A DNA stretch of 64,000 nucleotides. Source: a virus. Location: IMG/VR virus record IMGVR_UViG_3300028837_003734, positions 1 through 64,000 of that record. One strand, 5' to 3'. The position numbers and the translations under genes are program-made. Shown in pieces: positions 3,399 to 37,858 of the stretch (its first letter is position 1; each line of letters starts with the position of its first letter). The notes below the pieces were generated by a model. That model saw nothing but the letters and a program-made list of their open reading frames with translations. It ran no database searches and had not been told where the DNA came from.

Positions 3399-3430
3399 AA
3401 TTTAAAAAATTTTAAGGAGGTAATTCTTAA

Positions 3431-4867
3431 ATGAATAATAATAAGAAAAAATTCGATATTAGTAGGTATAGTGAGATTAAAGATGTAACCAGTGTAGTAA
3501 AGTTGCCCATGGCGGAGGAGAAAATTAGACTGGGAGAAATAAGGATATCACCTAGAACCGGTGAGGAATATCCAGTTGAGTTAGACTACTTCAAATGTCC
3601 AAAGGAAGTCAGAGAGGTATTCGGGGATGAGCCCACCGAAATTACCGTGTTCTTTCCGATAGCTGATCGAAAAATAGTTTTTCAACAATCTTATGAAAAA
3701 TATGGGAAGAATAAGGCCATGCTATGTTGGGGAGACGGGATTACCGCACAACGGAAAAATCTCGAAGATGGGAGTTGGGAAGATAGAAAATGTCCCTGTG
3801 AATATTTAGGAAAAAGTTGTGACAAAAGGGGGCATCTGCGTTTTATGATGCCTTCAGTCTCCATAGGAAAATTCTATGAATGCCAAGTTGGGGGGACGGT
3901 TTCTTTCCAAGAACTAAATAGTGCTTTTTTTCTCGCTGAAAGAACCACTGGAGGCTACTGGGCTATGGTCCCCTTTAAGATGCGAAGGGTACAAAAAAGA
4001 TTGAAGATACCGGGAACAGCTAAAATGAAAACACATTGGGTGGTAACTTTAGAGCTTATGGCTACTTTAGAAGAAGTCAAGAGGGTTGCTGCCGGGGAAA
4101 TATTATATCTGGGCCAACGTAGAAAATATGAGCTCGAAATCCCCGATCTATCAGAACAAAAAGACGAAAGTAGAAAAGTTTATACCCAGGAGGAGCTGGA
4201 AAAAGAAGAACGAAAAGAAGCAGAGGCAAGGGGGATAACTGTGGAGGAATTAAGAGAATCAAAAGAAATAGAGGAGGCAGCAACAGAACGAACAGAGAGA
4301 GAGAACTCCAAAAAAGATTTTGAGGAATCAAAAGAACGTGAGGCCAAGTTACAGGAGGAGGTGGCTAAAGGTAAGCATAAAGTCAAATCATACCAGGAGA
4401 GTAAGACCATCTTCCAAAATAAAAAAGAAGAGGAGGCTCAAGTTATCGAAGGGGTGCTGAAAAAGGCCTCTGAGGTCGGTCTTAAAAATTGGGGACAGAT
4501 TATAAATTTTACCATAAAGAAGGGGTTACTACAGACTACACTTTCAGAAACCTCGTTCAAGAAGGTCTTGACCACCAATAAGGATATATATAATCGCTTA
4601 ATGAAGGCCCTGGAACCAACAGAGTCTGAGGAAGAGAAAGTGAAGTTAGATAAGATATTTAAGATCTTTAAAAAAGCAGGGATGTCTACCTGGAAAGAGA
4701 TAGCTTGGATTGCCTGTAAAGCGGATTTAAAAGAACCAGGAAGCCCGGTTGAAGAACTGCAACGAACCTTACTCGATAATCCGGAAGCGGTGGAAAAAAT
4801 AATAGAGATGGCAAAAATCGAAGAAAAAGAAGAGCAGGAAATTGCCGACGAGGATATACCGGAGTAA
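3431..4867 (+). CDS. Gp3-like (recombination directionality factor family) protein with long C-terminal extension
   Basis: Residues about 1-235 match the gp3-like family named after the phiC31 directionality factor: EYPVELDYFKCP, FGDEPTEITVFFPIADR, LCWGDGITA and the cysteine set CPCEYLGKSC, followed by a beta-barrel ending near TLELMATLEEVKR. Many members occur in phages without serine integrases, where a general ssDNA-binding or replication role is suspected. The C-terminal ~240 residues are Glu/Lys-rich, with coiled coil and two helical repeats about 90 residues apart (L-K-N-W-G-Q and M-S-T-W-K-E). The start follows TTAAGGAGG. It probably acts in replication or recombination with the SbcCD pair downstream. 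Confidence 0.7.
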   Translation: MNNNKKKFDISRYSEIKDVTSVVKLPMAEEKIRLGEIRISPRTGEEYPVELDYFKCPKEVREVFGDEPTEITVFFPIADRKIVFQQSYEKYGKNKAMLCWGDGITAQRKNLEDGSWEDRKCPCEYLGKSCDKRGHLRFMMPSVSIGKFYECQVGGTVSFQELNSAFFLAERTTGGYWAMVPFKMRRVQKRLKIPGTAKMKTHWVVTLELMATLEEVKRVAAGEILYLGQRRKYELEIPDLSEQKDESRKVYTQEELEKEERKEAEARGITVEELRESKEIEEAATERTERENSKKDFEESKEREAKLQEEVAKGKHKVKSYQESKTIFQNKKEEEAQVIEGVLKKASEVGLKNWGQIINFTIKKGLLQTTLSETSFKKVLTTNKDIYNRLMKALEPTESEEEKVKLDKIFKIFKKAGMSTWKEIAWIACKADLKEPGSPVEELQRTLLDNPEAVEKIIEMAKIEEKEEQEIADEDIPE

Positions 4868-11929: not shown

Positions 11930-12022
11930 ATGATTAAAACAATCCAGATATTTAAGGTAATGTCTGATTTTATAATAAGGATCCTCGATAATTTTGGACG
12001 GGGATGCAAACTGCGGTGGTAG
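11930..12022 (+). CDS. Possible 30-residue peptide
   Basis: A short frame after sbcC begins MIKTIQIFKVMSDF and ends just before the 3D-domain gene. It is amphipathic and helical. A weak GGGCTGATGA lies upstream. It could be a leader peptide or chance; there is no paralogue or overlap to support it. Confidence 0.3.
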   Translation: MIKTIQIFKVMSDFIIRILDNFGRGCKLRW

Positions 12023-12027
12023 CAATG

Positions 12028-12711
12028 AATAGATTGATTTATATAGTGCTTATAGGCATGCTACTATCAATAACCTATGCTATTTATACCCTGCCAATCC
12101 CGATAGAAGCCGAAGAGTCAAAATACTTTATTATGACTTCGACGGCTTATAGTAATCACCAAAATTGTATTGCTGATAAATGGCGGGATGGCAAAACTGC
12201 AACTGGGACCCCTATAAGGGAAGGTATTGTAGCTATTAATGTGGATCTGATTGATGGTAAATGGGTAGTTAAAAGTCCTCTCAAACTTGGTCAAAAGATA
12301 TATATTGAAGGAATGGGATATTTTAGTGTAGAAGACACGGGGCCATTTACTGAGAAAGATTTTCATTTCGATATCTGGAATCTTGATGTCTATAAAGAAA
12401 ATTATGAACAGGCCAAAGAATGGGGAATTAAAAGAATCAAAGTTTATGTATTAGGGGGGATTAAAAGAATGAGAAGAGATGAAACAGTACGGGAAAGATA
12501 TAAAAGATGGTGGGAAGGGAAATATTGTAAGTTGGCAAAACAAGACAGGAAATTCAAATACGTACAAACGGCAGAGTTCATTGGTCCTCCAAGCGGTGTT
12601 TATGGCACTGTAATTCTTCATTATTTAGATGGTACTTTTGAACACGTTATTCCATTTAACCCGAATGCATTCAAGCCAAGAAAAATGGATGTTGAGGTGG
12701 AGGATGAATAA
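12028..12711 (+). CDS. Exported 3D-domain (wall hydrolase-like) protein fused to an RYKRWW-type domain
   Basis: ATG 12028 gives 227 residues, starting with a signal anchor MNRLIYIVLIGMLLSI. Residues about 33-145 match the 3D domain (double-psi barrel of MltA/Sps-type transglycosylases): TSTAYS, D-G-K-TATGTPIREG-IVAIN, EDTGP and FDIW supply the conserved aspartates. It likely acts on peptidoglycan during entry or lysis. Residues about 148-227 are a paralogue of the protein at 6138. An internal AGGGGGGA (12453-12460) sits 8 nt before an in-frame ATG at 12469, so the second part may also be made alone. The fusion looks like loss of a stop codon. Confidence 0.75.
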   Translation, partial: NRLIYIVLIGMLLSITYAIYTLPIPIEAEESKYFIMTSTAYSNHQNCIADKWRDGKTATGTPIREGIVAINVDLIDGKWVVKSPLKLGQKIYIEGMGYFSVEDTGPFTEKDFHFDIWNLDVYKENYEQAKEWGIKRIKVYVLGGIKRMRRDETVRERYKRWWEGKYCKLAKQDRKFKYVQTAEFIGPPSGVYGTVILHYLDGTFEHVIPFNPNAFKPRKMDVEVEDE

Positions 12712-19732: not shown

Positions 19733-19742
19733 AAATGAGAAT

Positions 19743-20585
19743 GGGGCGGAGTACTATTGGTATGTTATGTCTAAAGAGCTAATAGAAGAGGCATGTCTCT
19801 GTCCTAGTGGACCGGAAAGCTATAATAAAATTGCTTAAATTGCTACAATAAAGATGCTTCCGGTAGAGGATCGTGAGGCAGAATGCTAAAGGAATGGTGA
19901 TATAAAAAAGCTTGTAATATATCTGCTTTTGCCTCCCAAAAAAAAGAAAATTGAGAGATAGAACGCTAATAGGGAACTGTAGACTGGAGAATTGCTACTA
20001 AATATATGCTTCTATTATTAGATGACAGAAAGATCAAAGAGATGGGCAGAGAGCTAGGATGGTATTGATTTATTTAGTTGGCGAATGCCTCTGTCCGTCT
20101 CTAAGGATGGGGAGGCGGAGTACTGAAAAACATTTTATTCCGAAGATAGATAAAAGCCTTATGTCTCTGCCTAAATCTCCTCGGAAAGCTAAAAGGAAGA
20201 TGCTTAACATGCTATTAGCGAGGTTACTTCCGAGAAGAAGATACTGTGGGCAGAATGCTACTAATTCGATATCGATAGACTAAAGAATGTTTGCTTCTGC
20301 CTTAATAAAAGCTGGGACAGGCAAAGAGCTAAAATTATAATGACTTATTCGTTTAGGCCAAAATTGCCTTTTGTCTATCTTAGATATTAGAAAAAAAGGG
20401 AAGGAGAACTATTATAGCATTATATTCGAAGGGATTACTAATAGAAATATGTCTCTGACTGACAAAACGGAAAGTTAAAGCGATAATGTTTAATGTGCTG
20501 ATCAAGAATTGCTTCCGAATAAAATACTGCAGACAGAATGCTAGCGTAAGAATACGAAAAAGCTATTTATAGATTGCTTCTGCCT
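19743..20585 (+). ncRNA. RNA array A, left part: about 12 related hairpins
   Basis: No supported gene lies in 19733-20611. Hairpins are at 19743-19805, 19811-19864, 19875-19935, 19957-20016, 20038-20102 (14-bp stem), 20113-20172, 20180-20234, 20248-20302, 20315-20376, 20403-20456 (weak), 20468-20517 and 20531-20585. Stems differ in sequence but pair. Each is followed on the 5' side by one unpaired base and GC, AC or GT plus TA, and preceded on the 3' side by T plus GC or GT. That gives two further covarying pairs (G-C/C-G, A-U/C-G, G-C/U-G) and a variable TA...T loop. A three-hairpin superunit of about 190 nt recurs three times. A Cys-poor frame at 20059-20283 inside the array is rejected as coding. 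Confidence 0.85.
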
Positions 20586-20611
20586 CGCTAAAGAAAGAAA
20601 GGTGATTTAAA

Positions 20612-21544
20612 ATGTATTTTGTTAAATGGTCCATTAAAAAGGAATTAAAGGTCTTTGATCTCGCGAATGAGAAATCCAAAACCATGGCCCCGAGCGTCGG
20701 AGAATTCTCCAAATTTCTGGATAAGATTGAAAAGGAAAATTCCTTCTATTTCGAGGAAGGTGGCGGAGACTCCTTTAAACTCTTAGCTAGGAGAAGGGGC
20801 CATCAGGTATTTACACTGCCGGGAATCAGAACTAAGGAGTGCCGGGAGAACCTGAAGCTACCAAAAACAGACAAGAACGACGCTTTTGCCGTAAAACATT
20901 TAATTAAGGAGCACCCTGAAGATTTTTATGAATTCAAAGAGCTAGACGAAATGACTGCCCGGATCAGCATAATATTCAAAGAGCGTGCTGATACTGAAAA
21001 GATTATGGTGGCGACTAAATTAAGGCTGTTCGCTCTAAAGAATAGATTAGAATTGGTGAATCTGAACGGATACGAGAAAGAGGCGGTGGAGAAAAAGGAG
21101 GCAGTTATCCAGGCCCTAGAAGAAGATTTCGAACTTCAAACTAAACTATTACAAGCAGAAGTAAGGAAACATCCTGTCTGGAAGGATTATCTAAAGGGGA
21201 TAAAGGGAGTCGGACCTGCAGTAGCCGGTGGCCTGATAACCGGTATTAAAAGGGCTTCCCGGTTTAGCGATAAGTATGCCCTGAGACATTATGCCGGAAT
21301 GGTAGCCAAGAAGGGGAATCAGAGATTTAACCACCAATTGAAGAGGGCATTATTTCATTTTGCCGAACAGGTTATACGACAGAATACTCCGATCTGGCGA
21401 AAGCTATATGATGATATGAAGATTTTTTATGGCAATAAACACCCGGATTGGAGTAAAGGCAAGATAAATAATTACAGCAAAAAGTTTATAGAAACACGAT
21501 TCTTGAATGAATTATTCGAAGAGATAAAGATGGTGGAGAGATGA
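20612..21544 (+). CDS. IS110-family DEDD transposase-like protein with altered catalytic residues
   Basis: The 310-residue protein has the IS110 layout: an N-terminal RuvC-like DEDD domain (PF01548 type), a coiled coil (about 110-185) and a C-terminal Transposase_20 domain starting IKGVGPAVAGG (about 196) and FSDKYALRHYAGM (about 217-230). KTDKNDA (D87, D90) and the glutamate region FYFEEGGGD (E48/E49) are present. In the first strand, where active members have G-I-D-W-S, this protein has F-V-K5-W-S, so the first aspartate is Lys. The segment with the catalytic Ser-Gly is also absent: AGM is followed by VAKKGNQRF. DNA cleavage is therefore doubtful while RNA and DNA binding may remain. It starts behind AAAGGTGA. 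Structured RNAs flank it on both sides and its stop codon lies in the first downstream hairpin. Confidence 0.85.
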   Translation: MYFVKWSIKKELKVFDLANEKSKTMAPSVGEFSKFLDKIEKENSFYFEEGGGDSFKLLARRRGHQVFTLPGIRTKECRENLKLPKTDKNDAFAVKHLIKEHPEDFYEFKELDEMTARISIIFKERADTEKIMVATKLRLFALKNRLELVNLNGYEKEAVEKKEAVIQALEEDFELQTKLLQAEVRKHPVWKDYLKGIKGVGPAVAGGLITGIKRASRFSDKYALRHYAGMVAKKGNQRFNHQLKRALFHFAEQVIRQNTPIWRKLYDDMKIFYGNKHPDWSKGKINNYSKKFIETRFLNELFEEIKMVER

Positions 21545-21973
21545 TGCTAAAAGCAATGTGCCCTTAGGCTAGAGTATGATTGCTCATCTCCGATAAAAAA
21601 ATGGAAAGTTGAAAATGTTAGGATGTAAATGTGAATTAGCATATCATTAATAACTTGTTGCTTTTTGACTTTCTAACTGAGGGGCCGGGTTATAAGGAAT
21701 GTTAGATATTGCATGTAATAAAATATTTACTGCTGGTCTTGTGCCTCCTCATAATCCAGTCTGAGCTACTGTAACGGAATAATATAGGGAAGGGATAAGG
21801 AAATGAAAATGGTGGAGAGAGGCTGACAATGAGAGGCTGACAATGACGAACTGAGCTGTTGAGATGACGTTATTTTTAATCTGCTCTAAACAGAATGATA
21901 TAGGAAAAAAAAGAATAGAGAGATAATGCTACAGATGAAGTGCTTTTAAGCTAATTAGAATATGCTTATTTCT
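21538..21973 (+). ncRNA. RNA array A, right part: four to five hairpins
   Basis: Hairpins of the same class lie at 21538-21590 (GAGATGA/TCATCTC, overlapping the recombinase stop codon), 21604-21673 (12-bp stem), 21678-21751 and 21919-21973 (8-bp stem). A weak one lies near 21850-21890. All four clear members keep the 1-nt bulge, GC or GT plus TA on the 5' side and TGC on the 3' side. A 14-bp tandem repeat (GAGAGGCTGACAAT, 21817-21844) lies between them. No gene is seen in 21545-21992. Confidence 0.8.
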
Positions 21974-26069: not shown

Positions 26070-26136
26070 TGCACATATTTGTGATGGCATTCGAAAGAAA
26101 AGGAAAAAATAAAATTGATGAAAATTAAATAACAAT

Positions 26137-27025
26137 ATAATGCTCCTGCAAGAGCATTAGAATGTTATTAAAAATTGATGAAAAATAAAGATATGCCTAA
26201 AAATGAAGTTCTGTAATGCTTATTATGTAAGGCTTTCGGAGTGCAAAAAACAAAATTAATTGTACCTCTAGAAAAAAGACTAAAAATATTGAAACGAAAC
26301 GCTAAAAAAGTATAAAAAAAGAGAAGTACAATTTGGGTTTGTAAGGGGTCAAACGCAGTGCTCAAAAATATCTTATTTTATTTTTAAGGAAAAAAACAGC
26401 ATTAAAAATGACCTCTGCAAAACTCTAATCTACACCTTAAAAAAAAAAAAAACGAAATTCGGAAAATCACAAAAAAATGAGCATTAGAATCGAGTCTTGC
26501 AAAAACAAGATCTAATGCTCCAAAATCTCTTAAAAATATTTTAAGGAAAATCTGAGCATTAGAAATGAGTCTTGCAGAACCGAAATGTAGTGCTCTAAAA
26601 ATGCTAAAAATAAAAATAGGGATTTTTCGAGAGATAGAAATAGCCACCTGCAAAACCGAATTCTAGATCTCTTTTTTTTCCCGGAAACTAAATTTAAAAA
26701 TTCTGAAAACGAAAGACGTTTTTTAACCTCTTGCAGGAGCATTAGAAAGACGATAGAAAAAGCACGAAAAATAAAATAAGGGAATTTCTGCGGGTGCTGA
26801 AACGCTTATAAATAAAGAGTTACAAGACACTAAAAAAGGTTTTAATTGTACTTCTCTAAAACTACGCCAAAAATAAAATAACTAACGGTAAAAATGAAGG
26901 TAAAAAAGAGATGTAGGTTTTGGGTCTGCAAGGGGTCAAATGCAATGCTCGAAAAAACCTTAAAATATTTTTAAGGAAAAAAAGAGAAGTAGTTTTACTG
27001 TTTGCGAATGACAGAATGTTGCTGC
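26137..27025 (+). ncRNA. RNA array B: about ten hairpin units
   Basis: The gap 26070-27072 holds no supported gene. Hairpin units about 40 nt long, usually 75-85 nt apart, share a central YTGCAA-like motif near 26146, 26340, 26415, 26498, 26572, 26648, 26731, 26788, 26928 and 27002. The clearest are 26479-26520 (10-bp GAGCATTAGA/TCTAATGCTC with an inner CTTG/CAAG), 26554-26595 (8 bp with a G-U change) and 26630-26672 (AGAGAT/ATCTCT, followed by eight Ts). Linkers repeatedly contain a CTTAAAA..TTTTAAG palindrome. Segments 26319-26400 and 26906-26990 are close copies. No known RNA family is recognised. Confidence 0.7.
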
Positions 27026-27072
27026 CCAAAATATTGTAAAAATAAAATAAGAAAATTTGGGAGAAAAAGTAT

Positions 27073-27948
27073 TTGAAAATTGGCATTTTTGATATTGATA
27101 GCAAATATCATAATTTAGCTTTGATGAAATTATCAGCATGGCATAAGAATTTTGGGGATCATACGGAAATATATTTGCCATTAATGAAAAAAACTTATGA
27201 TAAGGTTTATGTTTCAAAGATATTTTCAAAGGGAAATATTAAAGAAGAATATATTCCTGAAAATGCTATTATCGGCGGATCGGGTTTTAATCTAAAAACT
27301 GTTTTACCTTATGATATGGAACATATTAAGCCAGATTATTCTCTTTATAATCTTGATTATTCTCTGGGCTTTACTACCCGGGGCTGTATAAGAAATTGCA
27401 AATTTTGTATTGTAAGGGAAAAGGAAGGCTACATAAAGGAACACGCAGAAGTGGAGGAATTTTTAAATTCTAAATCAAATGTAGTGGTTCTGTTGGATAA
27501 TAACTTTTTAGCCTTACCGAGCCATATTAAAAAATTAAAAAAATATATAGATAAGGGCTGGATAATGGATTTTAACCAGGGGCTGGATATAAGATTGATT
27601 AATGAAGAGAATGCTGAATTGCTGGCCAGAGTGAAACATCTAAAGCAAATACATTTTGCCTGGGACCTGATGGATTATGAAAAAGAAGTAAAAGAAGGAT
27701 TAAAAATATTATTTAAAGCAAGAGTCAAGCCGTATAGGATAATGGTATATATCTTATGCAACTACAATACTAATTTTAAAGAAGATATGTATCGGTTTGA
27801 AGAATTAATCAATTTAGGCATAGATCCCTTTATAATGATTTATGAAAATGGGAATAAAAAAATAAGAGACTTTGCCCGGTGGGTAAATAAGAGATTATAT
27901 AAGGTTTGCGATTGGGATAATTATAAAAGGAGCAGTGATAATAAATGA
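27073..27948 (+). CDS. Radical SAM protein
   Basis: TTG 27073 follows GGGAGAA, directly after array B. The 291-residue protein has an N-terminal Rossmann-like part (KIGIFDIDSKYHNLALMKLS, typical of B12-binding-like domains). The radical SAM motif is CIRNCKFC in FTTRGCIRNCKFCIVREKEG, with barrel elements VVVLLDNNFLA and DFNQGLDIRLI after it. It should bind a 4Fe-4S cluster and SAM; the substrate is unknown. Similar short radical SAM proteins are common in phages. It overlaps the next, broken gene by ATGA. Confidence 0.9.
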   Translation: MKIGIFDIDSKYHNLALMKLSAWHKNFGDHTEIYLPLMKKTYDKVYVSKIFSKGNIKEEYIPENAIIGGSGFNLKTVLPYDMEHIKPDYSLYNLDYSLGFTTRGCIRNCKFCIVREKEGYIKEHAEVEEFLNSKSNVVVLLDNNFLALPSHIKKLKKYIDKGWIMDFNQGLDIRLINEENAELLARVKHLKQIHFAWDLMDYEKEVKEGLKILFKARVKPYRIMVYILCNYNTNFKEDMYRFEELINLGIDPFIMIYENGNKKIRDFARWVNKRLYKVCDWDNYKRSSDNK

Positions 27949-31596: not shown

Positions 31597-32292
31597 ATGG
31601 ACAATAGAAGGCATGTAGTTAATGTATCAGGGGGTAAAGATAGTGTAGCGATGTTGCTTAGAATGTTAGAGCTGGGCCAAAGAGTTGACGAGATCCTATT
31701 TATGGACTCTCAATTGGAATTATCAGATACCTACAAATATATAGATAAGTTAGAAAATCATATCGGAAGGAAGATAACCAGACTAAGGTCGGAAAAGAAT
31801 TTTTTTAGGCTTTTCTATACTCTAATTACTCGAGGCAAGATGGAAGGAAGAATCAGAGGTTTCCCCATGGTAAATTTCCCTTGCTGGTGGGAGCGGGACG
31901 GCAAGGGCAAGATAATGGACCGACATAATCGAGGGCAGATTGTCTATGTAGGATATGCAGCAGACGAGGAGAGGAGACTGAAAAGATTTTCTGATAAAGG
32001 TAAAAATATTGAATTTAGGTTCCCTTTGATCGAATGGGGATGGGAAGAGAAGGATTGTTTTAAATATCTAGAAAAGAAGGCCCTAGTTAATCCCATTTAC
32101 AGGCAGGGATATAAGAGAAATGGCTGCTGGTTATGCCCCAGGCAAAACAAAGAAGCTCTGAGATGCTTATATAATAATTATCCGAATTTATGGAGAATAT
32201 TAAGGACATTGGAAGAAGATAGCCCCTTGGGATTCGGGTTTCATTCTCCTCTGAATAAGCTTGAGGAGGAATGGAATAAGAAATATTTTTAA
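31597..32292 (+). CDS. PP-loop ATPase, PAPS reductase-like
   Basis: The 231-residue protein begins VNVSGGKDSVAML, the PP-loop SGGKDS. EILFMDSQLE follows, and the C-terminus has GCWLCPRQNKEALRCL, with cysteines as in phage and DndC-like members of the PAPS reductase family. Such enzymes adenylate a substrate, often for sulfur transfer. Being first in a block of DNA methyltransferases, a DNA or nucleotide modification role is possible but unproven. The start follows TAGGAG. Confidence 0.85.
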   Translation: MDNRRHVVNVSGGKDSVAMLLRMLELGQRVDEILFMDSQLELSDTYKYIDKLENHIGRKITRLRSEKNFFRLFYTLITRGKMEGRIRGFPMVNFPCWWERDGKGKIMDRHNRGQIVYVGYAADEERRLKRFSDKGKNIEFRFPLIEWGWEEKDCFKYLEKKALVNPIYRQGYKRNGCWLCPRQNKEALRCLYNNYPNLWRILRTLEEDSPLGFGFHSPLNKLEEEWNKKYF

Positions 32293-32311
32293 AACTAGGG
32301 AGATATTTTGA

Positions 32312-33748
32312 ATGAAATATCCCGAAGATTTTATAAATAAAATAATATGTACTGATTGCCGGGAAGGCATGAGAGATATTCTGGATGGGAGTATTGATTT
32401 GATGGTAACGGATCCCCCTTATGGTTACGCATTCATGCAACGGAATTGGGATAAAGCTTTAGTAAATATGGGCACTTGGAGGGAATGTTTAAGGGTGTTA
32501 AAACCAGGAGCCTTTGCCTTTATTATGTGTGCTCCCAGACAAGACGTATTAAGCAGACAGATAATAAATCTAGAGGAAGCGGGATTTATAACTGGATTTA
32601 CAAGTCTATATTGGGCCTATGCCAGTGGTTTCCCGAAGGCAAGTAATATTGGGAAAATGGTAGATAAGAGATTGGGAGTAGAAAGAGAAAATGGAATTAA
32701 AGTACCTAGACACTATCCGGACCAACAGCATTGGGGGAAACCTACAAGTAGAAACATAATAGCACCATTTACTCCAGGCGGAAAATATGAAGGAGAAATT
32801 GAAATTGCTATGAAAGAAATAACAATTCCCGCTACTCCCCAAGCTAAAGTTCTAGATGGCTCTTACAGTGGATTCCAACCTAAACCTGCAGTAGAAGTTA
32901 TCCTTGTGGTGATGAAACCATTATCAGAGAAAACTTATATGGAGCAGGCCCTAAAGAATAGGAAAGGGATAACTTGGCTTGATAAGGGGAGGATACCTTA
33001 TAAGGGGAAAAATGATTTTATAATTTCCCACCATAATAAACAATTAAAAGAGAAGGATAAATCAACGGGAATGTTTGGAGCTACAAATGGATTCGGATTA
33101 CTCGAATCAAATATATCCCAAGGCCGTTTCCCTGCCAATCTTTTAGTAAGTGATGATGTATTAAATGATGGAAATAAACATTCATCAAAACATACTCGAT
33201 TACGAGAACGATTTAAACAGTATAGACAGAGAAGCAATATTTATATGGATACAAATAAGATGCTTAATTGGAAGAATATTTATTACGATTCTGGCTCATT
33301 TTCTCGTTATTTTGACCTCGATAAGTGGTGGGTAGAGAAGATCAAACAACTACCTGAATCAGTCCAAAAGACTTTTCCTTTTCTAATTGTGCCAAAGGCA
33401 AGCAAGACTGAGAAGAACAGAGGATGTGAGAAATTAGAGGAGAAAGCAAGGGCAAATATAAATAAAATGATGGGAGAAGCAGGGAATTTTAAAACTGGGA
33501 GTGGCAATGTAAGGACTGTTAAATTTAAAAACCACCATCCCACCGTGAAACCAATCAAACTAATGAGCTATTTAATTATTTTAGGCAGCCGTACAAATGA
33601 TATTATACTGGATCCCTTTGTAGGAAGCGGGACGACTTGTATTGCAGCTAAGATGCTAAACAGAAGATATATCGGATTTGATAATGACGGGGGATATGTC
33701 GAGATTGCACGGTCTAGAGTAAGAGCGATAGAAGCAGTTTTAATTTAA
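32312..33748 (+). CDS. DNA methyltransferase (DPPY type, N6-adenine or N4-cytosine)
   Basis: The 478-residue protein has VTDPPYGYAF (motif IV) near residue 34. A long middle region acts as target recognition domain, and ILDPFVGSGTTCIAAKMLNRRYIGFDND (motifs I and X) lies near 435. This beta-class order (IV before I) suits N6-adenine or N4-cytosine methylation. Its first 38 residues resemble those of the gene at 37025 (MKYPEDFIN-IIC), so the two are paralogues. It probably protects phage DNA from host restriction. Confidence 0.92.
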   Translation: MKYPEDFINKIICTDCREGMRDILDGSIDLMVTDPPYGYAFMQRNWDKALVNMGTWRECLRVLKPGAFAFIMCAPRQDVLSRQIINLEEAGFITGFTSLYWAYASGFPKASNIGKMVDKRLGVERENGIKVPRHYPDQQHWGKPTSRNIIAPFTPGGKYEGEIEIAMKEITIPATPQAKVLDGSYSGFQPKPAVEVILVVMKPLSEKTYMEQALKNRKGITWLDKGRIPYKGKNDFIISHHNKQLKEKDKSTGMFGATNGFGLLESNISQGRFPANLLVSDDVLNDGNKHSSKHTRLRERFKQYRQRSNIYMDTNKMLNWKNIYYDSGSFSRYFDLDKWWVEKIKQLPESVQKTFPFLIVPKASKTEKNRGCEKLEEKARANINKMMGEAGNFKTGSGNVRTVKFKNHHPTVKPIKLMSYLIILGSRTNDIILDPFVGSGTTCIAAKMLNRRYIGFDNDGGYVEIARSRVRAIEAVLI

Positions 33749-33786
33749 ATGATATTCTTTGGGTATTTTTGAGGAAATTATAACCA

Positions 33787-34413
33787 ATGTCAAAAATAAT
33801 TCTTGATTTATGCGGTGGAACAGGGGCTTGGAGTAAAAAATATAAAGAGGCTGGATATATCGTGATAAATGTTACTTTACCTTTTTATGATGTTTTAAAG
33901 ACTGAGATAAAAGGCAAATATATAATCTTCAAAGGTGGGATCGAAAAACCGCTCAGGTTTAGGATTGATGATATCTATGGAATATTAGCCTCACCTGTTT
34001 GTACTATGTTTAGCCTGGCTAGGACAAGTGCTAAAACACCGAGAGATTTTAGGCAAGGTATGGAATTGGTAATAGCCTGCCTAAATATAATTTGGGAATG
34101 CCGTTATGATCATAAATTAGCTTTTTGGTGTTTAGAAAATCCGATGGGCTATTTAAGACAATTTTTAGGTAAGCCGGTATTTACTTTTGACCCTTGCGAC
34201 TTTGGGGATTCTTACACGAAAAAAACTGATTTATGGGGATACTTTAATATACCAAAAAAGAAGCCAGTAGAACCTATTTTTGTTACAGACAGTAAGAGTA
34301 GAAAGAGATATAGCCAAATACATTTTTCGGCCGGAAGTGGTCAAAAATCCAAAATGTTAAGAAGCATTACCCCATCGGGTTTTGCTCGAGCATTCTTTGA
34401 AACGAATAAATAA
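33787..34413 (+). CDS. C5-cytosine methyltransferase-like protein (short, divergent)
   Basis: The 208-residue protein starts ILDLCGGTGAWSKKYKEAGY, a SAM-binding motif. It has ILASPVCTMFS where C5 methylases carry PCQ, then ENPMGYLRQFLGKP and FGDSYTKKTDLWGYF. The family of short Dcm-like phage proteins shows this pattern. The cysteine is preceded by Val rather than Pro, so catalytic competence is uncertain. Confidence 0.7.
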   Translation: MSKIILDLCGGTGAWSKKYKEAGYIVINVTLPFYDVLKTEIKGKYIIFKGGIEKPLRFRIDDIYGILASPVCTMFSLARTSAKTPRDFRQGMELVIACLNIIWECRYDHKLAFWCLENPMGYLRQFLGKPVFTFDPCDFGDSYTKKTDLWGYFNIPKKKPVEPIFVTDSKSRKRYSQIHFSAGSGQKSKMLRSITPSGFARAFFETNK

Positions 34414-34450
34414 ATGATGGCTCGGGATCTCGACTAAAGGAAGTTTATCA

Positions 34451-36064
34451 ATGATTAATACAATAATTTTAGGACACGCTTTAGATGTCTTACCACAATT
34501 ACCAGCAGAATCAGTCAGTTGTATCACTACCTCGCCACCTTATTGGGGTCTCCGGGATTATGGAATTGAGCCGGTAATATGGGATGGGGATAAAAACTGT
34601 AAGCATGACTTTGGCGAATATAACTCAAAATTGTTACATGAAAATAGGCAAAATTTAGATGGTGGCACGTTAGGCAATCCAAAATATAGAGAAAATCTGC
34701 ATGGTTTTGGTAATGCAAAAGCAGGATTTTGCTCTAAATGCGGAGCTTGGCGCGGTAGCCTTGGCCTTGAACCGACCTTTGAATTGTATGTAAAGCATTT
34801 ATGCAACATCTTTGACAGAGTAAAACGGGTATTAAGGAAAGACGGAACCTGCTGGGTAAATATAGGAGACAGCTATGGAGGCAGTGGGAATGCTTCAGGA
34901 CACAGAGAGGACACAAGAAATTTAGGCTATAAAACTTCAGAGATGGGAGCTACTAAGGGTAATCAAAAAACTACTAGACAATATGCTAAAAGTTTATTGG
35001 ATATCCCCTATCGCTTTTCAATAGAGATGATTAACCGGGGTTGGATCAAGAGGAATACAATTATCTGGTGGAAACCGAATTGTATGCCTGCAAGTGCAAA
35101 TGACCGGTTTACCATAGATTTTGAATATTTATTTTTCTTTACCAAAAACAATAAAGCTATATTCTGGACCAACGAAAAGACTTTAGAATGTGTAGATAAA
35201 AAACCACTGGGAATTAAGGGGGTAGAGGGAGAAGACTGGGAATGGAGACTAATCGGAGAAAATTATAATACTAAAATAAGCAGGGAGGATGCTGAAAGAT
35301 ATAATTCTCTTAAAGCAAGAAAATATAGAAAGAAAGAATGGAAAAAGGTTTCATTATGGAAAGGACATGATTATTGGTTTGAGCAGCAGTTTGATAAATA
35401 TGCACTTAGTACGTTACCTCGGATGAAAAGAGGAGTCAACGTTAATAAATGGACATTCGGGGCTGATGGACAGACCCCACATAATTTGAGCCAACCGAGA
35501 TTAAATAAGAAGAGGGGATACAAAACAAAGCAGCCGGAGAAGGAAATACAAGGACCGCAATATCATGGCAAAGATATCAGTTATGGCAAACAAGGCCGCA
35601 ATAAACGTTGTGTCTGGAAGATACCAACAAAAAGTTTTAAGGCAACCCATTTTGCAACTTTCCCCGAAACATTAATCGAACCGATTATTAAAGCAGGATG
35701 CCCTGAATTTGTCTGTAAGAAGTGTGGGAAGGCAAGGTTAAGGATATATAAGTTTACAGGAAAGTATGAAAAATGTGGGGGCAAAGATAGCATAACAGCA
35801 GAGAAAATACATAAAGCTAGTCCCACAAGCACATTATTGACCGGTAAGAGAAAAGTTAATGAAGAAATTGGTTACACTAACTGTGGCTGCGATGCAGGTT
35901 TTGAGGGCGGTATAGTTTTAGATCCCTTTATGGGGGCCGGGACTACCGCGTTGGTAGCCTTAAAACAGAGAAAAAGATTTATAGGGATTGAAATAAAGCG
36001 AGAATATATAGATATGACAAATAGGAGAATCAGAAAGGTTCAGCAAGAATTCAATTTAGGATGA
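34451..36064 (+). CDS. DNA methyltransferase (SPPY type) with a large insert
   Basis: The 537-residue protein has TTSPPYWGLRDYG near residue 27 and VLDPFMGAGTTALVALKQRKRFIGIEI near 495. SPPY is usual for N4-cytosine and some N6-adenine enzymes. The insert holds several cysteines (CSKCGAW, CKKCGKARL, CGCDAG) that likely form zinc sites in the target-recognition region. It overlaps the next gene by ATGA. Confidence 0.9.
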   Translation: MINTIILGHALDVLPQLPAESVSCITTSPPYWGLRDYGIEPVIWDGDKNCKHDFGEYNSKLLHENRQNLDGGTLGNPKYRENLHGFGNAKAGFCSKCGAWRGSLGLEPTFELYVKHLCNIFDRVKRVLRKDGTCWVNIGDSYGGSGNASGHREDTRNLGYKTSEMGATKGNQKTTRQYAKSLLDIPYRFSIEMINRGWIKRNTIIWWKPNCMPASANDRFTIDFEYLFFFTKNNKAIFWTNEKTLECVDKKPLGIKGVEGEDWEWRLIGENYNTKISREDAERYNSLKARKYRKKEWKKVSLWKGHDYWFEQQFDKYALSTLPRMKRGVNVNKWTFGADGQTPHNLSQPRLNKKRGYKTKQPEKEIQGPQYHGKDISYGKQGRNKRCVWKIPTKSFKATHFATFPETLIEPIIKAGCPEFVCKKCGKARLRIYKFTGKYEKCGGKDSITAEKIHKASPTSTLLTGKRKVNEEIGYTNCGCDAGFEGGIVLDPFMGAGTTALVALKQRKRFIGIEIKREYIDMTNRRIRKVQQEFNLG

Positions 36065-37024
36065 TGCAAAAGGAGGTTGAAATCGAGTTAGAATTTATCG
36101 AATTATTTGCAGGGATAGGGGGTTTTAGATATGGACTTGAAAATTGTAGAAATGTTTTACAAAGCAAGACTGCCAAGAATATACAAAAAACTATGCCCTG
36201 CGTTGAGAAAGGGGAGGCAAGGTTTGCTTGTGTTTTTGCCAACGAATGGGATAAATACGCCTGCAAAATCTACCGAAAAAACTTTGGGGAAGGAGAATTA
36301 TATGAAGGAGACATTAGAAAAATCCCAGCCGGGTCTATTCCAAACCACGACCTTCTCACTGCGGGATTCCCTTGTTAGGCTTTTCTCAATTGCTGGAAAA
36401 CGAAAAGGATTCAACGATACTCGCGGAACTCTGTTCTTCGAAATATGCAGGATTGCGGAAATTAAGAAACCTCGTTTACTTCTGCTTGAAAACGTCAAAG
36501 GGCTACTTAATCACAAAAAGGGGGACACTTTTAGAATTATCCTCGATTCGCTTTCAGAATTGGGGTATGACTGTGAATGGGAGGTGTTTAACAGCAAGAA
36601 TTTCGGAGTCCCGCATAACAGGGAAAGGGTGTTCATTGTCGGACATCTTAGAGGAAGAAGCGGACAAAAAATATTTCCTATCGGAGGAATCAGAGAAGCT
36701 CCTCGTAAACAGGATGGGATTGACTTTAAGATAATACACAATATATATGGAGGCTTCGGGGAAAAAACGGTTAGAGAATTTAAAAAATATTCTCCAACAA
36801 TTAGGACATCCAAGGGCGGAGGACACCTGCCCATGATAGTGAAAGATAATAAAATACGAAAGATAACCCCGATAGAATGTGAAAGATTACAAGGCTTTCC
36901 TGATAACTGGACGAAAGGAATAAGTGATATTCAGAGATTAAAGTGTTTAGGGAATGCAGTTACAGTGAATGTGGTTGAAGAGATAGGAAAGAGAATTGCC
37001 AAAGTTCAGCAGGAGATATTTTAA
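36061..37024 (+). pseudogene. C5-cytosine methyltransferase split at its catalytic PC motif
   Basis: The first frame (36061-36378) reads FIELFAGIGGFRYGLE to LLTAGFPC and then hits TAG. The second frame, open to 37024, continues LFSIAGKRKGFNDTRGTLF, LLLENVKGLL, NFGVPHNRERVFIVG and the C-terminal RLQGFPDNW, all C5 methylase motifs. Removing one T at about 36376 joins them as FPC-RLFSIAG, in register with the usual FPCQPFSIAG. The lesion falls exactly at the nucleophile motif. It could be decay, a sequencing error or a +1 recoding site. Confidence 0.8.
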
Positions 37025-37858
37025 ATGAAGTATCCTGAAGATTTTATAAATAGAATAATATGTGGGGACCATTTAATAGCAATTAAAGATATTCTCAATG
37101 ATGTAATTGATTTAACAGTAACAAGTCCACCCTATGAGGAATTGAGAGACTATAGAGGGTTTATATTTGATCATAAAAAATTGATAAAAGAATTGTTTAG
37201 AATTACTAAGATAGGTGGGGTATTGGTTTGGGTGGTAGGAGACCAAACCATTGATGGTAGCGAATCAGGTAATTCTTTTCGGCAAGCTCTTTACGCTAAA
37301 GAGATTGGATTTAATTTACACGATACAATGATTTATGAGAAGAATAATTGCAGATACCCAGCAGGAAAAAGATCTGTAAGATATAGTAATTTTTTTGAAT
37401 ATATGTTTGTATTTTCAAAAGAAAAACCTAAAACAATAAATCTTATTAAAGATAGAAAAAATAGATGGGCAGGAACTAAAGGCTTTGGTTTACAAAGTTT
37501 TAGGCAGAAAAATGGGTCATTATTAAGGGAAAATCATAATGAAATTTCAAGAAGAAAGAGGACCGATTTTTATGGATGTAGGAGTAATATCTGGCGTATG
37601 AATACAGGATATGGATATAGCACAAAAGACAAAATAGCTTTTGAACATCCTGCAATATTTCCAGAACAGCTAGCACAAGACCATATAATCAGTTGGAGCG
37701 ATAAAAATGATATTGTTTTAGATCCGATGTGTGGAAGCGGAACAACTTGCAAGATGGCAAAAAAATTGGGTAGGAGATTTATTGGAATTGATATAGGTCC
37801 AGAATATTGTGAAATTGCAAGAAAAAGGGTTAATTCTATTCCAGAATCTTTATTTTAG
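37025..37858 (+). CDS. DNA methyltransferase (SPPY type)
   Basis: The 277-residue protein begins MKYPEDFINRIICGDHL, with VTSPPYEELRDY (motif IV) near residue 36 and VLDPMCGSGTTCKMAKKLGRRFIGIDI near 235. It is a compact beta-class N4-cytosine or N6-adenine enzyme, paralogous in its N-terminus to the gene at 32312. It is the last of five methyltransferase genes in a row. Confidence 0.92.
   Translation: MKYPEDFINRIICGDHLIAIKDILNDVIDLTVTSPPYEELRDYRGFIFDHKKLIKELFRITKIGGVLVWVVGDQTIDGSESGNSFRQALYAKEIGFNLHDTMIYEKNNCRYPAGKRSVRYSNFFEYMFVFSKEKPKTINLIKDRKNRWAGTKGFGLQSFRQKNGSLLRENHNEISRRKRTDFYGCRSNIWRMNTGYGYSTKDKIAFEHPAIFPEQLAQDHIISWSDKNDIVLDPMCGSGTTCKMAKKLGRRFIGIDIGPEYCEIARKRVNSIPESLF

Follow-up and report, generated by a model that had tools for sequence, protein, structure and literature searches.

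In this study, we analysed a window of 64,000 bases (bases 1-64000 of the 76,069-bp IMG/VR virus record IMGVR_UViG_3300028837_003734), and within it a locus at 19742-21973 that very probably encodes a phage-borne RNA-guided system of the stem-loop TIGR-Tas type. The genes of the record are of the tailed-phage type (terminase, portal, and tape measure). The locus is built around an open reading frame (ORF) of 310 amino acids on the plus strand (20612-21544), here called tas, which is present as a single copy within the record and is flanked on both sides by groups of hairpins. Reading by hand yielded an upstream group of 12 hairpins (19742-20586) and a downstream group of three sound hairpins plus a doubtful one, U15 (21537-21973); all units, labeled U01 to U16, lie on the plus strand on either side of the gene. 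The initial annotation of this DNA had counted 12 hairpins before the gene, which stands, and four or five after it, which is reduced to the three plus one given above.

The hairpins share a common architecture consisting of a 1-nucleotide (nt) bulge on the 5′ side and two inner base pairs (GC/GC, AC/GT, or GT/GC, with GC/AC in U07 as the exception), enclosing a loop that begins with TA or TG and ends in T. A strict mechanical pattern scan gave 10 matches in 2.3 kb, compared with 0.6 on average and never more than 3 in 200 shuffled sequences. A second phage, found in IMG/VR (contig L002, record G001, 34.4 kb), encodes a protein with 90% identity to that of tas, has the same neighboring genes around it, and carries an array of its own. 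Across 28 units from the two phages, 92.3% of the pairs are formed versus 73.0% after shuffling and at most 49% when slid, and 53 two-sided pair changes are found versus 17.5 ± 3.9; because the stems were partly selected for pairing, this covariation is somewhat inflated, whereas the internal helix was not so selected. A covariance model trained solely on the 12 hairpins of the relative recovered U01 to U14 and U16 at E values from 1.8e-8 to 4.1e-3 and U15 at 0.077, and its next-best match in 77 kb had an E value of 1.2. In 22 other loci (226 kb), the same model matched nothing beyond its training units except for two hits at chance level (E values near 0.9). Since the two phages are related, these matches show that the array is present and locus specific; they do not make each hairpin an independent piece of evidence. 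Scan, covariation, and the relative-trained model thus agree with the earlier description of about 16 hairpins with covarying stems, including the bulge and the two covarying pairs.

The loop interior, previously taken to be merely variable, follows a fixed plan, namely, box C, a 9-nt spacer A, box D (UG), a linker, box C, a 9-nt spacer B, and box D. Box C reads CUA or UUA (YUA) and begins at the inner stem pair. The TA start and T end of the loop noted earlier are indeed seen, with TG as a variant start, and together with the two inner pairs they make up the edge boxes C and D. The plan is clearest in U02 (GCTA-TAATAAAAT-TGC..GCTA-CAATAAAGA-TGC), U13, and U16. Counted from the edge box C, an internal UG follows at exactly 9 nt in 10 of the 16 units (1 in shuffles), and an internal UA precedes the edge box D by exactly 9 nt in 12 of the 16 (2 in shuffles); at the other offsets between 5 and 13, only 0 to 3 units fit, and neither count was reached in any of 5,000 shuffles (0/5000). 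In the alignment of the relative, 95.7% of the internal box pairs are formed, and two-sided changes occur in both. Other kinds of array were also considered. The array locus has no near-identical 25- to 36-nt repeat family, so a CRISPR array was rejected; a dual-repeat TIGR array was likewise rejected, since the locus lacks the pair of alternating short direct repeats (period of about 36 nt) that is seen in loci L034 and L035, described below. No curated C/D RNA in Rfam matched this array, even at E values up to 1, and an RNA known to Rfam, including box C/D small nucleolar RNA (snoRNA) or small RNA, was rejected on this ground.

The tas product is TasR-like, with a degenerate RuvC N terminus, a coiled coil, and a Nop domain. 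Its best solved relative by sequence is 9mty_A (E value of 3.3e-13), an entry that the structure library names "Structure of TIGR-TasR in complex with tigRNA and target DNA". When eight homologues were combined into a profile, it matched 9mty at 1.5e-81, TasH at 1e-31, ISCro4 at 4e-5, and IS621 at 1e-4. For the fold search we used an AlphaFold model built from 8 sequences (mean predicted local distance difference test score of 72.8; an earlier two-sequence model scoring 38.7 was discarded), in which confidence is good for the C-terminal half and poor for the RuvC part; 9mty was again the top match (E value of 1.3e-11), followed by TasH, ISCro4, and IS621. Further relatives were sought in IMG/VR with a DNA pattern for the protein motif L..IKG.GP..AG. 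The pattern returned seven loci encoding relatives, six of them distinct because the L030 and L034 proteins are the same. Arrays of two alternating short repeats with a 36-nt period adjoin the gene in L034, L035, L031, L029, and L028, that is, five of the six distinct relatives, although distant, carry textbook 36-nt TIGR arrays. The L034 protein is TasR-like, and no RuvC was seen in the proteins of L035, L031, L029, and L028. Because these motif relatives carry TIGR arrays, the phage protein is firmly placed among the Tas proteins. The Tas-like gene of L032 is accompanied, near the contig end (L032:1-400), by fragments of TIGR-like repeats spaced at about 147 nt and by no regular 36-nt array. 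No relative of the protein was found in the genome contigs and phage records scanned, and the final motif scan returned, beyond the known loci, unrelated proteins only.

The N terminus of the protein bears on its predicted activity. Its sequence is VKWS in this phage, VKWA in the relative, and VDWS in the L034 TasR, where the Asp corresponds in the alignment to D11 of 9mty; the equivalent residue is K5 in both phages. The remaining acidic positions E48/49, D87, and D90 are seemingly retained. In the characterized TasR, the D11A mutation abolished the cleavage signal (PMC12045711). The RuvC nuclease of the phage protein is probably inactive because its first catalytic Asp is a Lys, and the protein would then probably bind DNA without cutting it.

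The initial annotation had regarded the protein as IS110 derived and the locus as an IS110 element that had expanded its bridge RNA into many guides, for DNA binding or rearrangement. Such a transposon remnant, with a multiplied bridge RNA and programmed rearrangement, would be consistent with the Pfam match to Transposase_20 (4e-7), the weak match to DEDD_Tnp_IS110, which falls under its cutoff, the presence of IS621 and ISCro4 among the fold matches, and the paired guides that bridge RNAs also carry. However, Tas structures rank above IS110 proteins by sequence and by profile, and the top fold match is a TasR; moreover, the gene is single copy, its neighbors are the same in the relative, and IS110 elements as a rule have one bridge RNA each, whereas 15 to 16 units with the TIGR plan are present here. 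With a Lys in place of the first catalytic Asp, rearrangement is unlikely. An IS110 transposon identity was thus rejected and appears highly improbable, and by sequence, profile, and fold, the protein is a Tas protein and not an IS110 transposase. The authors of the TIGR study, moreover, placed IS110 as derived from TIGR-type systems and not as their ancestor (PMC12045711).

TIGR-Tas is a young RNA-guided family described by Faure et al. in Science in 2025 (PMC12045711). In its stem-loop TIGR arrays, the stems are palindromic and variable, the linkers also vary, and each unit has two 8- to 12-nt spacers bordered by boxes C and D; pull-down showed that these arrays are processed into single hairpins (PMC12045711). 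The discussion of that paper mentions TasR proteins with inactive RuvC and stem arrays in candidate phyla radiation (CPR) bacteria and raises them as a possible step toward small nucleolar ribonucleoproteins (snoRNPs) (PMC12045711). From the anatomy, box geometry, covariation, homology, and guide turnover observed here, we assign a probability of about 0.93 to the reading that the locus is a phage-borne stem-loop TIGR-Tas system with a TasR-like protein whose RuvC domain is predicted to be inactive. The multiguide idea of the initial annotation, in which many variable-guide RNAs serve one IS110-related protein in DNA binding, matches the evidence and this published, biochemically characterized family.

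Comparison of the two phages offers a direct view of guide turnover, as both carry the same stem-loop array with some units identical and others guide swapped; how guides are gained or changed, like the natural targets, is an open question for TIGR-Tas (PMC12045711), and this comparison seems to be the new part of our work. In U02, U04, U09, and U13, both spacers are kept in the relative (70 of 72 positions), while the flanks of the same units changed at 14 of 120 positions (Fisher P value of 0.03). In other units, for example, U03, U05, and U12, both spacers are lost (20 of 54 positions identical, the background level), and the stem and middle of the spacer-replaced units are still 81% identical (Fisher P value of 2e-7 versus the spacers); since the kept and replaced groups were defined after inspection, these P values are indicative. 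The identities of spacers A and B covary over 12 units (Spearman coefficient of 0.92, P value of 2e-5). Within the window, the blocks U01 to U03, U06 to U08, and U10 to U12 and the pair U13/U16 are alike in their stems (83%) and middles (66%), whereas their spacers are 30% alike, as in unrelated units (31 to 34%). U14 to U16 are missing from the relative. As most stems persist while the spacers change together, the sequences indicate that scaffold and guides evolve apart and that guides are exchanged as pairs, which is consistent with both spacers of a unit being directed at the same site. As a tentative possibility, the A and B spacer pair would be swapped as a single cassette while the hairpin scaffold around it is conserved, three-unit blocks would be duplicated and their spacers renewed, and nuclease-dead TasR might use the array as a reprogrammable, non-cutting DNA-binding regulator, possibly on a gene of the phage itself (U03 to 12308).

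The individual units are as follows, with E values from the relative-trained model. U01 (19742-19806; E value of 3e-6) has spacer A TTGGTATGT and spacer B GAAGAGGCA, or a 12-nt B. U02 (19809-19867; 1.8e-8), the sequence of which is given above, and U04 (19955-20018; A ATAGGGAAC, B CTAAATATA; 1.8e-8) keep both spacers in the relative, as does U09 (20318-20376; A AAATTATAA, B GCCAAAATT or GGCCAAAAT; 5.4e-7). Stems are kept and spacers replaced in U03 (19875-19935; A AAGGAATGG, B TAATATATC; 4.4e-7), U05, which has a 14-bp stem (20038-20102; A GGATGGTAT, B GTTGGCGAA; 6.9e-6), and U12 (20530-20586; A GCGTAAGAA, B TTTATAGAT; 1.8e-5), whereas in U08 (20248-20302; A CTAATTCGA, B AAGAATGTT; 1.7e-5) the relative differs in both stem and spacers. 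The inner pairs are AC/GT in U06 (20113-20172; A AAAAACATT, B AAAGCCTTA; 5.7e-4) and in U10, which has a short stem (20399-20460; A TTATAGCAT, B ATAGAAATA; 1.5e-4); the edge box D of U07 (20179-20235; A AAAGGAAGA, B TTAGCGAGG; 1e-4) is UA instead of UG. U11 (20465-20520) has spacers A AAGCGATAA and B ATCAAGAAT (1.4e-6). Downstream of the gene, the 5′ arm of U13 (21537-21591; A AAAGCAATG, B GAGTATGAT; 7.8e-6) overlaps the tas stop codon, and the unit has a compensatory G-C to A-T change in the relative. U14 (21607-21670; A GGATGTAAA, B ATAACTTGT; 0.0041) and U16, which has a U13-like stem (21919-21973; A CAGATGAAG, B ATTAGAATA; 9.6e-6), have no counterpart in the relative, and the uncertain U15 (21681-21752; 0.077) spans 21681-21740 by hand and 21692-21752 by the model.

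By analogy with the characterized family, from which processing, RNA binding, and DNA targeting are taken, the array would be transcribed on the plus strand together with tas and cut between units into hairpin tigRNAs of about 55 to 65 nt. Two pseudosymmetric box C/box D pairs, the first where the stem meets the loop and the second within the loop, would allow a Tas dimer to bind each hairpin. On the DNA, the two 9-nt spacers would pair with a single site of about 18 bp, one spacer to each strand and with strong bending, and the order on the site is probably A and then the reverse complement of B. Given the Lys in place of the first Asp, the complex would most likely sit on its targets and bend them without cutting, and this occupancy could block or regulate genes of a rival element, of the host, or of the phage itself; loss of cleavage, spacer order, and role are our own deductions. 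A rival possibility is a TIGR-related system that targets RNA and stands near box C/D small ribonucleoproteins, its dead RuvC serving as a platform for another protein, as in Nop5. The combination of hairpin-type guides and inactive RuvC resembles Nop5 with snoRNAs, the suggestion of a route to snoRNPs cited above points the same way, and the joint turnover of A and B also fits two arms of one ribonucleoprotein. Nevertheless, the characterized TasR acts on DNA, with activity on RNA not reported, Rfam gave no C/D RNA, and the scan of neighbor genes, which was not a systematic search for such proteins, brought no fibrillarin-like or L7Ae-like partner to notice; we therefore regard RNA targeting as unlikely.

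For the DNA-targeting stem-loop TIGR reading, the predicted sites were 18 bp long and composed of A plus the reverse complement of B, or of the reverse complement of A plus B, with gaps from −1 to +2. The former order follows what is known of IS110 bridge RNAs, and the reverse order was also tried. In TIGR systems the spacers pair with opposite strands, and the text of the paper does not give their order on the target (PMC12045711). Searches of this phage and of G001, including cross-searches, gave no convincing target and one close match, for U03, whose A plus reverse complement of B matches 17 of 18 positions at 12308-12325 in the phage's own gene at 12004-12711. This match is suggestive; for the whole spacer set, 2 of 120 random genomes do equally well. 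There was no excess of matches at 2 or 3 mismatches over random genomes, and the guides of neither phage convincingly match the other. Scans of IMG/VR for targets of the conserved U13 and U04 returned 7 and 3 contigs, respectively, judged to be about chance level, and repeated sites came only from near-identical contigs.

Several points weigh against the assignment. The stems are weak or broken in U09, U10, and U15, and the internal boxes are off consensus in U03, U06, and U12; the RuvC part of the predicted model has low confidence, and loss of cleavage is deduced from one of four catalytic residues. Neither the phage, G001, nor the IMG/VR scans provided a natural target. The weak stems and degenerate boxes of some units would also suit a decayed, nonfunctional array or repeats that are structural and do not act as guides. 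Against this reading stand the exact 9-nt box spacing, the two-sided pair changes in stems and internal helix, the kept spacers of four units whose own flanks changed, and an intact ORF that is 90% identical over two phages, and we consider it most improbable.

Other features of the window were recorded. A DUF5131/radical S-adenosylmethionine (SAM)-like phage gene (18602-19330) lies immediately 5′ of the array, and a second radical-SAM-like gene is found at 27073-27948. A run of DNA modification-type genes spans 31597-37858, with a 3′-phosphoadenosine 5′-phosphosulfate reductase-like gene (31597-32292), N6/N4 DNA methylases (32312-33748 and 34451-36064), and additional methylase-like ORFs; two genes that begin near 32299 and 37012 have a common 52-nt repeat at their starts. 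A 58-nt repeat (97% identical) occurs at 2813-2870 and 3430-3487, the second copy at the start of ORF 3431-4867, and near the far end of the record (74112-74374) lies a 266-bp copy (86% identical) of the stretch at about 2000-2264. The AT-rich region of about 1 kb at 26070-27072 has no plus-strand ORF and is missing from G001. It carries imperfect 75- to 90-nt direct repeats and hairpins, for example, at 26479-26520 (GAGCATTAGA-N22-TCTAATGCTC), which share a TGCAAAAC-like motif; it matched neither the TIGR unit model nor Rfam and is possibly a second, different array of noncoding RNAs.

Among known systems, the IS110 bridge systems IS621 and ISCro4 share a Nop-like RNA-binding C terminus, a RuvC-like N terminus, and paired guides in internal loops with the phage locus, and are distinguished by a single bridge RNA per element, an active DEDD site, and mobility. 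The dual-repeat TaTasR (PDB 9mty; L034) has a homologous protein, the box D UG, 9-nt spacers, and a box C CCA that corresponds to CUA here, but its units are 36-nt direct repeats instead of hairpins of about 55 to 65 nt, and it has the catalytic D11 where K5 is found here. The CPR-bacterial inactive-RuvC TasR (PMC12045711) likewise combines a predicted inactive RuvC-like domain with stem arrays, whereas the present locus is on a phage and its protein has 310 amino acids, beside 331 in 9mty; as a probably non-cutting phage member, it would be a natural "dead" version handy for laboratory tests. Much the same layout is seen in the stem-loop TIGR array of TasA on a Peromyscus leucopus gut contig (PMC12045711), where tandem hairpins likewise form sub-arrays around a Nop-domain gene; the stems are palindromic and variable, boxes C and D border both spacers, the linker varies, and the number of units is similar (13 there, 15 to 16 here). 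TasA has no nuclease domain, whereas the phage protein retains a RuvC-like N terminus minus the first Asp, and expression has been shown for the TasA array; the present locus lies in a tailed phage. The initial annotation knew of no described example of this layout; stem-loop TIGR arrays have been published (PMC12045711), and because the locus fits them item by item, it would be a further member of a known system and not a new kind.
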